Shown here: one piece after another, positions 59,518 through 61,943 of the stretch
Layout of the letters: each line of letters starts with the position of its first letter
How positions within the stretch are numbered: position 1 is the stretch's first letter
Source: Bacillus sp. es.036
GTDB lineage: Bacteria; Bacillota; Bacilli; Bacillales; Guptibacillaceae
Assembly: GCF_002563635.1 (NCBI RefSeq)
Contig: NZ_PDIZ01000001.1
Span: forward strand, 930,001 to 994,000
DNA: 64,000 bases
Direction of reading: 5' to 3'
Program-made: the position numbers and the translations under genes
Notes under the pieces: generated by a model
What the model saw: the letters and a program-made list of their open reading frames with translations, nothing else
Told to the model about the DNA's origin: nothing
Databases searched by the model: none

Positions 59518-61140
59518 ATGAGACTCAAAGAAACATTCCTTCCAGGATCAAATGTCATTGCGGCAGATTATATCGCTGAGAAAACAACGCTCTCAGCTTT
59601 TTTTGACTATACATATCAGCATGATTCCTCGTATGAAGAGCGTTACAAAGAGTTAATGGAACGTCATCAAGATCGTACGAATTTAACGGAACACTTGATG
59701 GGGTTTAATGAGAAATTTGAAGCTGAAGGACCTGCGCTTAGAAATATCGAGCGTTTACAACAATCAGAATCGGTCACAGTTGTTGCCGGACAACAGGCTG
59801 GCGTGTTAACTGGTCCTCTTTATACGATCAATAAAGCGATATCGGTCATTAAATTAGCAGAAGAGAAAGAACGAAAGCTCGGGGTACCTGTTATACCTAT
59901 TTTTTGGGTAGCGGGGGAAGATCATGATTATCATGAAGTGAATCATATTTATTCGTATGATGAAGGACGCGAGCGTAAAGAAGCAGTGCCTCAAAAACAA
60001 ATGACCAAGCAGGCATTATCCGATATATCGCTTGATCATGACGCGATGAACACTTGGACGCGTGACATGCTCAAACGATTTGGGGAAACATCATATACGA
60101 AAGAGATACAAGCGTTTCTTGAAGGAGTAACAGAGAAGTCAACTACTTACGTGGAGCATTTTTGTTACATCATGACAAAGCTTTTTTCAAAGCATGGACT
60201 TGTGCTCGTAGATTCAGGTAACCGAGATTTTCGCCAGCTTCAGACGGACGCGTTTAAAAAAATGATTCATCAAAACGAAACAATCAATGAAGCGGTTTTA
60301 ACCCAGGCGGCTCGTCTTCGTGAAGAAAATTATCCAATTGGTGTTGACCTTGATGACCAACAAGCAAATTTATTTGTAAAGGTAAATGGCGAGCGAATCT
60401 TACTAGAACGACTAAACGGAAGATTTGAGGGAAAAACGGCTTCCGTTTCATTCTCGAAAGAAGAACTGCTTGATTTAGCGGAACGTCAACCGGAAGATTT
60501 AAGTAACAATGTTGTGACGCGACCGATCATGCAGGATTTAATGTTTCCTGTGCTAGGATTTGTGGCTGGACCGGGTGAACTTGCCTACTGGGCTTTACTG
60601 AAGCCTGCTTTTCATACTTTTGGAATAAAAATGCCTGTCATCGTGCCGCGACTTACATTTACGTTTGTGGAGCGACATATTCAAAAGTATGTCGCTGACC
60701 TCTCCTTATCAGATGATGAAATCCTAAAGTCAGGGATCGATCACTCAAAAGAGGCCTATATGCGCCAGTTAGATGATGTAGGGATTGGGACCACATTTAA
60801 CGATGCTAAGTTAAAAGTGGAGGAAATTCATCAAAACCTTCGTGATTTAACAGAATCTGTTGATCGCGGACTTGATCGCTTTGCGGAAAAGAATGGCCGG
60901 TTTCTTCAAAGACAGCTTGATCTTCTTCAACAAAAACTCTATCATTCACTCGAATACCAGCATGAAAATACGTTGGCTAAATTCGATGAGGTGGGATTTG
61001 CATTAAAACCTAACGGCGCTCCCCAAGAGCGAAAGTGGAATGCTGTCTATTATTTAAATTGGCATGGTTTGGATTTTGTGGATCAAATGATGGATCTGGA
61101 GCTTCCCTTTAATGATCAGCATAAGGTGATTTATCTTTAG
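59518..61140 (+). CDS. bshC: bacillithiol synthesis cysteine-adding enzyme BshC
   Basis: Last enzyme of bacillithiol synthesis, joining cysteine to glucosaminyl-malate (YllA in B. subtilis). 540 aa: Rossmann-like core with VVAGQQAGVLTGPLYTINKAI near 82-102 and PVIPIFWVAGEDHDYHEVNHI near 130, then a coiled-coil arm (about 410-475) and LNWHGLDFVDQM near the C-terminus. Start set at ATG 59518, with AAAGGAAG 9 nt upstream; GTG 59494 precedes the site. Confidence 0.92.
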   Translation: MRLKETFLPGSNVIAADYIAEKTTLSAFFDYTYQHDSSYEERYKELMERHQDRTNLTEHLMGFNEKFEAEGPALRNIERLQQSESVTVVAGQQAGVLTGPLYTINKAISVIKLAEEKERKLGVPVIPIFWVAGEDHDYHEVNHIYSYDEGRERKEAVPQKQMTKQALSDISLDHDAMNTWTRDMLKRFGETSYTKEIQAFLEGVTEKSTTYVEHFCYIMTKLFSKHGLVLVDSGNRDFRQLQTDAFKKMIHQNETINEAVLTQAARLREENYPIGVDLDDQQANLFVKVNGERILLERLNGRFEGKTASVSFSKEELLDLAERQPEDLSNNVVTRPIMQDLMFPVLGFVAGPGELAYWALLKPAFHTFGIKMPVIVPRLTFTFVERHIQKYVADLSLSDDEILKSGIDHSKEAYMRQLDDVGIGTTFNDAKLKVEEIHQNLRDLTESVDRGLDRFAEKNGRFLQRQLDLLQQKLYHSLEYQHENTLAKFDEVGFALKPNGAPQERKWNAVYYLNWHGLDFVDQMMDLELPFNDQHKVIYL

Positions 61141-61188
61141 AGGATAGAAGGGACAGGAGCGGTTATTTCGATTCCTAACCATATAGTT

Positions 61189-61222
61189 GAAAAGCTGCCG
61201 GAGGATTCTGGCAGCTTTTTTT
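61189..61222 (+). terminator. terminator of bshC
   Basis: AAAAGCTGCCGG, short loop, CTGGCAGC then seven T. Confidence 0.92.
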
Positions 61223-61224
61223 AG

Positions 61225-61316
61225 TTTGGCCAATATAGTTGAGATTTGGCCAATAAAAAAGGGTTTTAGCTAATATAATTCGTATTTGGCCAATATCCTC
61301 TGAAATTGGCCAATAT
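61225..61316. repeat. array of five palindromic TTGGCCAA sites at 20-bp period
   Basis: TTTGGCCAATAT-like units start at 61225, 61245, 61265, 61285 and 61305, exactly 20 bp apart. The 8-bp core is TTGGCCAA in four units and TTAGCTAA in the third, a double change that keeps the palindrome. The 8-nt spacers are unrelated. It lies between the bshC terminator and another hairpin terminator, in the 370 bp before mraZ that hold no ORF. Confidence 0.9.
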
Positions 61317-61354
61317 AACACGATGGGGCATCGTTTCATTCGACAAATAGCGGG

Positions 61355-61369
61355 GGGTGACAGGCACCC
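61355..61369. repeat. GGGTG-ACAGG-CACCC element
   Basis: A 15-bp hairpin-forming sequence. Its core GGTGACAGGCACC is one I recall as frequent in intergenic regions of Bacillaceae, so it may mark an old dispersed repeat. Confidence 0.4.
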
Positions 61370-61395
61370 GCGGAGAAAACCAAATATTTTTAAAG

Positions 61396-61424
61396 AAAAA
61401 TCCTGCTGAACAGCAGGATTTTTG
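61396..61424 (+). terminator. isolated hairpin terminator upstream of mraZ
   Basis: AAAAATCCTGCTG, loop AA, CAGCAGGATTTTT. A textbook terminator with no gene before it, since bshC already ended at 61222; it implies a transcript from the repeat region or a safeguard against read-through into the division cluster. Confidence 0.85.
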
Positions 61425-61428
61425 TGTT

Positions 61429-61495
61429 GTGGTACGAATTAATTTTTTAGTGGTGAAAAGTGGGGAGTTGTGGTAACTTAGAGGTAGAAAGTGGG
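61429..61495 (+). promoter_or_regulatory. MraZ-type operator repeats
   Basis: GTGGT/GTGGG pentamers at 61450, 61460 and 61470 form three direct repeats with 10-bp period, the pattern bound by MraZ upstream of its own gene. Further copies lie 21 bp to either side (61429 and 61491). Expected to mediate autoregulation of the mraZ-rsmH-ftsL-pbpB cluster. Confidence 0.75.
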
Positions 61496-61511
61496 AGAGG
61501 TGGATGGAGCC

Positions 61512-61943
61512 ATGTTTATGGGGGAATATCAACATACTGTTGATGAAAAAGGCAGAATGATTATTCCCGCTAAGTTCCGTGAAGAACTTGGAGATAGCTT
61601 CGTCCTCACCCGCGGGTTAGATAAATGTATCTTCGGCTACCCAATGACCGAATGGGAAGTTCTTGAAGAGAAAATGAAATCACTCCCTTTTACAAAGAAA
61701 GATGCTCGTGCTTTTACCCGATTCTTTTTCTCAGGTGCAACTGAATGCCAACTGGATAAACAGGGCAGGGTAAATATTGCCGGAACATTACGCCAGTATG
61801 CAGGGCTTGAGAAAGAGTGCGTTGTAATTGGTGTTTCAAATCGATTAGAAATTTGGGACAAAGCGGTCTGGGAAGAGTATTTCAATGCATCAGAAGATTC
61901 TTTCTCTGAAATCGCGGAAAGTATGATGGATTTCGATTTGTAG
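61512..61943 (+). CDS. mraZ: transcriptional regulator MraZ
   Basis: 143-aa protein made of two AbrB-like swapped-hairpin domains that assembles into rings and represses the division and cell-wall cluster by binding repeats in front of itself. Each half carries the [12 protein letters not shown] / [12 protein letters not shown] motif. Start at ATG 61512 (MFMGEYQH, as in B. subtilis), with AGAGGTGG 8 nt upstream; the frame is open back to 61491. First gene of the cluster. Confidence 0.96.

Follow-up and report, generated by a model that had tools for sequence, protein, structure and literature searches.

Results

A phased array between bshC and mraZ

The window, which means here the whole stretch of 64 kb that was analyzed (G000:C1:930001-994000, from a genome of 4.34 Mb in three contigs), contains five short cores between the end of bshC (61140) and the start of mraZ (61512; Pfam). 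Direct reading of the letters confirmed the starts proposed in an earlier sequence-only reading, 61226, 61246, 61266, 61286 and 61306, with a step of exactly 20 bp. The array lies outside any gene, as had been claimed; an 89-amino-acid frame overlapping it on the minus strand has no Pfam match. The intergenic region comprises the following features:

61189..61220, plus strand: intrinsic terminator of bshC with a 14-pair stem and a T tail, directly before the array
61226..61317, plus strand: five-unit phased array of about 93 bp, [TTrGmyAATAwAwyynrrwT]x4 + TTrGCCAATAwA
61226..61237, plus strand: motif of unit 1, TTGGCCAATATA
61246..61257, plus strand: motif of unit 2, TTGGCCAATAAA
61266..61277, plus strand: motif of unit 3, TTAGCTAATATA
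61286..61297, plus strand: motif of unit 4, TTGGCCAATATC
61306..61317, plus strand: motif of unit 5, TTGGCCAATATA
61339..61372, plus strand: REP-like segment TTCGACAAATAGCGGGGGGTGACAGGCACCCGCG, which in three locus groups follows the array on its 3' side at a near-fixed distance
61396..61423, no strand assigned: terminator-like hairpin with A/T tails before mraZ, conserved in the genus
61448..61511, plus strand: mraZ leader, conserved in 14 of 14 genomes with or without the array and not part of it

The sequence TTGGCCAA stands at 61226, 61246, 61286 and 61306, and the variant TTAGCTAA at 61266. Within the 64-kb window exact TTGGCCAA occurs at these four places only, and its bare count is unremarkable (4 versus 1.37 expected; at least four in 6 of 100 shuffles). 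A scan for 8-mers with four occurrences at a constant spacing of 17-26 bp identified the array as the sole place in the 64 kb and found no place in three mononucleotide-shuffled windows. The array had been described as lying between two terminators. The upstream one (61189-61220) was found by the terminator scan; the downstream hairpin (61396-61423) is evident in the sequence and conserved in relatives, and the scan did not list it. The spacers, which had been called unrelated, turned out to share a weak WYYNRRWT and a position-specific similarity to other arrays.

Distribution in the genome, the genus and beyond

The exact double-core pattern gave 9 forward matches in the genome that contains the window (G000) and 0 in its control. 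With a search model that uses the sequence only and was built from 18 arrays, 22 matches at E<=0.001 were obtained, which were merged by hand to 20 loci. Arrays are present in 13 of 14 genomes of the genus, G000 included, with 7 to 25 model matches each at E<=0.001. The genus member G006 has no array at this threshold and G009 carries mostly short ones (five units in 1 of 10), which indicates that the array system is dispensable. According to NCBI, P. hwajinpoensis is now placed in Guptibacillus, Guptibacillaceae.

The family is represented outside the genus by the single genome of a sister genus, which showed no match at E<=1e-5 among the matches listed. A free-spacing pattern (period 16-27) was applied to a sample of 398 genomes of the class; the 397 genomes outside the genus gave no match, the sole match being G000, the only genus member of the sample, and the control pattern had a single match in each of 3 genomes. 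Three exact cores at 20 bp, searched in one genome per species, were found in 10 stretches, 8 of them in three genus members. The other two, in an Arthrobacter and in a delta-proteobacterial bin, have the exact cores and the 20-bp step but lack the TAWA extension; they are taken as unrelated and were left out of the model. A phage or plasmid origin was rejected on the basis of 0 stretches in viral contigs and the absence of a match in phages and plasmids. A looser core pattern, which tolerated up to 2 mismatches, had 69 matches on the forward strand versus 41 in its control, so that of its listed matches only the exact ones and those inside arrays were used. No description of the repeat was met in the literature searched, with most subscription journals beyond reach and longer words judged by titles. 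The element is apparently restricted to the genus, with no match outside it in the samples searched.

A second family of phased arrays, ATATCNGCGAWA (ATATCNGCGA arrays), has a step of 21 bp with one step of 20. In the relatives G001 and G012 these arrays lie within about 0.2 kb 3' of TTRGMYAATAWA arrays (loci L144 1110, L184 1141, L203 on the minus strand and L204 855), and viral contigs contained 0 stretches of this family.

Anatomy of the element

The array set comprised 156 loci and included 116 of 171 model matches from ten relatives; the locus at 2470228 in G000 (E 6.8e-4) and the G008 locus at 4371920 stayed outside it. As the arrays were found by their cores, from the matches listed, weak arrays are under-sampled. 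A motif scan of the 156 loci yielded 165 arrays with 747 cores. Five cores are present in 115 arrays, four in 21, three in 18, two in 8 and six in 3, and none has more. The step is 20 bp in 563 of 582 cases, 21 bp in 9, 40 bp in 8, and 19 bp and 22 bp in one case each. The consensus of 110 five-unit arrays consists of four copies of TTrGmyAATAwAwyynrrwT followed by a final TTrGCCAATAAA. Information in these arrays is 1-2 bits inside and mostly 0.0-0.3 bits outside; in the dozen bases before the first core it reaches up to 0.5 bits, with 0.8 at the last base.

The unit is an oriented motif of 12 bp, TTRGMYAATAWA. Among the 747 cores TTGGACAA occurs 124 times versus twice for its reverse complement TTGTCCAA, and only 235 of the 550 cores in five-unit arrays are palindromic. 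The proposal of a strictly palindromic site was therefore dropped, and the claim that changes in the core keep the symmetry does not hold in general. The same asymmetry is seen in divergence, which is 0.007 at G4 versus 0.174 at its dyad partner, position 5. A weak tendency to symmetry exists in five-unit arrays at positions 3/6 (match 0.656 versus 0.624 shuffled, sd 0.015); the other dyad pairs within these cores show none.

Two types of 5' border were found: a terminator-like end in 48 of the 165 arrays, detected with a loose pattern, and a dyad head, AGAATSATTCT, in 36 or 39 arrays depending on the pattern used. In one subfamily the first unit is directly preceded by the dyad head TTAGAATSATTCTNG, and the flanks differ (e.g. 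L034 11366-11381). This head is reminiscent of a Fur/PerR-type 7-1-7 box.

The bshC-mraZ site within the genus

Comparison of the bshC-mraZ spacer in the 14 genomes revealed five cores in four of them (G000, G004, G007 and G013), a shortened or decayed array in another four (four cores in G005, two in G008, two in G009 and a decayed remnant in G011) and no array in six (G001, G002, G003, G006, G010 and G012). Whole units are missing in G005, G008 and G009. The bshC terminator is present in the 8 genomes that have the array or its remnant, and the mraZ leader and the hairpin before mraZ are conserved in all 14. Since the array clade has, in addition, the bshC terminator and the REP-like segment, the array is not the sole difference between empty and filled sites.

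The array had been connected to the division (dcw) cluster, and its occurrence at many unrelated sites or its absence from all close relatives had been named as results that would speak against the reading. The second did not occur. The first did: the same array stands at 20 loci of its own genome beside unrelated genes, and it is missing at bshC-mraZ in 6 of 14 genomes. Regulation of the dcw cluster, or a MraZ operator conserved together with mraZ, was rejected because, of the 14 genomes, 6 lack the array and 4 have it in a shortened or decayed form. The copy before mraZ is one of a set and exerts no specific control on the division cluster.

Neighboring genes and orientation

The flanking genes at 19 of the 20 loci of G000 (40 proteins besides bshC and mraZ, 39 with a Pfam match) belong to no common pathway. 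They include QueC, citrate synthase, a PBP, an MFS transporter, acyl-CoA dehydrogenases, GerQ, an ABC sugar transporter and a glycine betaine transporter. With the array taken as plus, simple ORF calls in 32 of 34 locus groups gave the arrangement +A+ in 12, +A- in 9, -A- in 7 and -A+ in 4. Neighbors without a shared pathway, together with the occurrence of all four arrangements, fit an element acting at the level of DNA rather than of the transcript.

Phased sites are typical of operators and the array stands 198 bp before mraZ, so that it might be read as the operator of a transcription regulator acting on the adjacent genes, mraZ included. Such a function is highly improbable in view of the missing common pathway, the position between convergent genes in 9 of 32 groups and the conservation of the mraZ leader in the 6 of 14 genomes that lack the array.

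An RNA-level element, i.e. a transcribed array that forms serial hairpins or offers repeated RNA-binding sites in 3' ends or leaders, was also considered. The array of the window folds well (-28.3 kcal/mol, z -3.66) and some arrays with a dyad head are located upstream of genes. However, pairing between adjacent cores does not exceed that with shuffled partners (0.868 versus 0.873), and for this reason the hairpin chain was rejected. Moreover, G4 is combined with A5 in 109 of 550 cores, which breaks the central G-C pair, 48 of 165 arrays show the terminator-like end of the loose pattern just upstream, and both neighbors are antisense to the array in 7 of 32 groups. We regard an RNA-level function as very unlikely. 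Assignment to an Rfam family was discarded as well, because none of the 21 matches listed for 60900-61700 reaches the gathering score.

In the complete genome G008, 16 of 21 arrays are located on the right arm (Rayleigh p about 0.0005, KS 0.0085); after merging of clusters the values are 0.025 and 0.13. In G009 it is 7 of 10 arrays (0.051 and 0.039; 0.22 and 0.23 after merging). The position on the chromosome is thus skewed to one arm and not even, which is partly due to local clusters. Examples of such clusters are L034 in G000 (C1:402500-421500), with 4 arrays in 12 kb, and L145/L149/L151/L153 on C13 of G011, with 7 in 25 kb. Two further candidates were rejected. A polar, replication-directed signal does not agree with only 12 of 21 G008 arrays pointing with the fork. 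An extra ParB-family protein (Spo0J/Noc-type sites) in array-bearing genomes is not indicated, as HTH_ParB gives 2 matches in each of the 14 genomes, with or without arrays.

Selection on the motif and its phase

Grouping of the arrays by flanking DNA resulted in 34 groups, 24 of them with at least 2 members; some large groups merge more than one locus. For the comparison of orthologous arrays we used 137 of 321 pairs, in which both flanks are alike and five units are present on both sides (81 arrays). In these pairs the divergence is 0.007 at G4, 0.015 at A8, 0.015 at T9 and 0.013 at A10, and reaches 0.25-0.38 at the spacer positions 13-19. The 8-bp core is less divergent than the spacer in 18 of 18 groups (pooled 0.096 versus 0.285). 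At seven fixed positions (1, 2, 4 and 7-10), which were picked after inspection of the data and summed from pairwise counts, 146 of 4795 comparisons differ (3%) versus 1205 of 3836 at spacer positions 13-19 (31%), a ratio of 0.10.

Because the arrays had been found by their cores, neutral decay was simulated with the same detection rule and the same positions. The simulation, which corrects this ascertainment only in part, gave ratios of 0.58-0.73 and a loss of 11-47% of internal units; observed were 0.10 and 8 skipped units in 582 steps. In the 40 genome pairs listed, spacer divergence spans 0.10-0.45 and the ratio 0.02-0.32, with the lowest ratios mostly in distant pairs. Constraint seems weaker in the closest pairs, with 0.24 for G003-G010 and 0.17-0.32 for G000, G007, G008 and G009. 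Within the latter set, G009 versus the other three gives 0.25-0.32, and those three among themselves 0.17-0.19; constraint on the arrays of G009 is possibly relaxed, at small counts. Judged by these divergences, purifying selection on the motif and its 20-bp phase is strong in orthologous arrays. As signals and spacing are kept while the letters between them change freely, something probably binds the motifs.

Mobility of the element

The array also behaves as a mobile repeat. Within genomes, 595 pairs of arrays have a median spacer identity of 0.47. One pair in G002 reaches 0.84 with unrelated flanks, and two pairs in G011 reach 0.97 and 0.91 with unrelated downstream flanks and an upstream identity of about one half. 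From such near-identical pairs we conclude that the element is copied or recombines as a block. At L151 and L147 in G011, neighboring near-identical array pairs have differing downstream flanks. The upstream and the downstream flank of one array at L151 resemble two different loci in relatives, a pattern that suggests recombination between arrays.

A REP-like repeat, GGTGACAGGCACC, is found in the window at 61356-61368. With up to 1 mismatch it occurs 46 times forward and 13 times reverse in G000 and 0 times in the control, often after TTCGAC and CGGG, with regions on C1 at 277-318 kb, 381-600 kb and 3.05-3.17 Mb. In three locus groups (23 arrays, 3 with the inverted form) its distance on the 3' side of the array is 26-40 bp; in two more groups it stands farther off, which makes 28 of 165 arrays in all. 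One copy is located about 0.2 kb from a Y1 transposase domain; the others of the six Y1 loci in G000 have no copy within about 0.8 kb.

The array could be a selfish MITE- or REP-like repeat without a host role, moved in trans by a transposase, with the motif being read by the mobilizing enzyme. In line with this idea are the abrupt borders to flanks that are mostly unrelated, the presence of near-identical arrays at more than one place in a genome, the near-fixed distance of the REP-like GGTGACAGGCACC in three groups and the Y1 transposase genes in 14 of 14 genomes. On the other hand, copies at the same site stay constrained at a spacer divergence of 0.36-0.45 (ratios 0.02-0.21), which would be needless after a selfish insertion, and the consensus has no terminal inverted repeats. 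Y1_Tnp, counted at the family level, has 2-6 matches per genome and is equally present in the array-less G006 (3 matches); its presence does not track the arrays and was rejected as an explanation. A purely selfish origin without host role seems unlikely to us.

Comparison with known repeat systems

Iterons of plasmid origins consist of a few oriented repeats of about 20 bp in helical phase. The arrays share these features, but they are dispersed on the chromosome and have no rep gene beside the annotated loci. In the type II centromere of pSK41, ParR assembles along parC, a set of 20-bp tandem direct repeats (PMC9426499, PMC5016525). The arrays resemble parC in being oriented tandem direct repeats in helical phase. 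They differ from it in number, with about 20 dispersed chromosomal arrays here versus one parC locus per replicon. No operon of an actin-like ATPase and a DNA-binding adaptor was found among the 40 flanking proteins (39 with a Pfam match) at 19 of 20 loci in G000. Because of the many dispersed arrays and the lack of such an adjoining operon we liken the arrays to iterons and ParR-parC and do not class them as members.

REP/BIME elements associated with RAYT are described as short, dispersed, extragenic and species-specific composite mosaics (PMC2817692). The arrays are likewise short, dispersed and extragenic. In contrast to REP/BIME, their units are direct repeats in one orientation at a fixed 20 bp, with no conserved hairpin and, at the family level, no link to the presence of a Y1 transposase. 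The definition of a REP-type extragenic palindrome with a conserved stem does not fit the array unit, which is oriented and pairs not above shuffles. The repeat bcr1 of the Bacillus cereus group is a dispersed non-coding element limited to one group of Bacilli (PMC3733652), which applies to the arrays too. Unlike bcr1 and MITEs, the arrays have an internal phased array under selection and no terminal inverted repeats in the consensus. Empty bshC-mraZ sites differ from filled ones in more than the array.

Discussion

The array had been interpreted as a row of sites for a cooperative DNA-binding protein. The phased, platform-like character has been retained, with the motif and the 20-bp phase under selection, and the strict palindrome and the link to the division cluster have been given up. 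We favor, with a probability of about 0.6, a dispersed iteron-like DNA platform for a putative cooperative protein, which was copied as a block and then kept by selection.

The element typically consists of five oriented copies of TTRGMYAATAWA at a distance of 20 bp, about two helical turns, and stands between genes at sites around the chromosome. According to the model, the putative protein would bind each 12-bp motif in the same orientation, and bound neighbors would touch via the fixed 20-bp step, resulting in a five-site nucleoprotein stack. The spacers would mainly set the distance. The element may spread block-wise, in many cases next to a terminator or together with a dyad head, and once placed it would be retained by selection on motif and phase. 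A role at the scale of the chromosome or at boundaries may be envisaged for such a stack.

A more far-reaching idea is that Bacilli harbor a class of phased-array elements, each with a lineage-own motif repeated at a constant distance of two turns (TTRGMYAATAWA with a step of 20 bp; ATATCNGCGAWA, nearby in two relatives, with one of about 21 bp) and a dedicated filament-forming DNA-binding protein that marks the boundaries of transcription units or one chromosome arm. This would be a chromosomal counterpart of plasmid centromere arrays and was not met in the literature searched; we put it forward as a speculation that is rather unlikely to hold in full.

Repeats scattered between bacterial genes are commonly regarded as inert or selfish. 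In the present case, base-by-base selection acts on the motif and the helical phase of a discrete element at orthologous sites across a genus, so that a factor acting in trans and a function for the host can be tested directly. The array is short, G4 is known to be its key base, its step is known too, and G006, in which arrays were not detected, provides a natural control.
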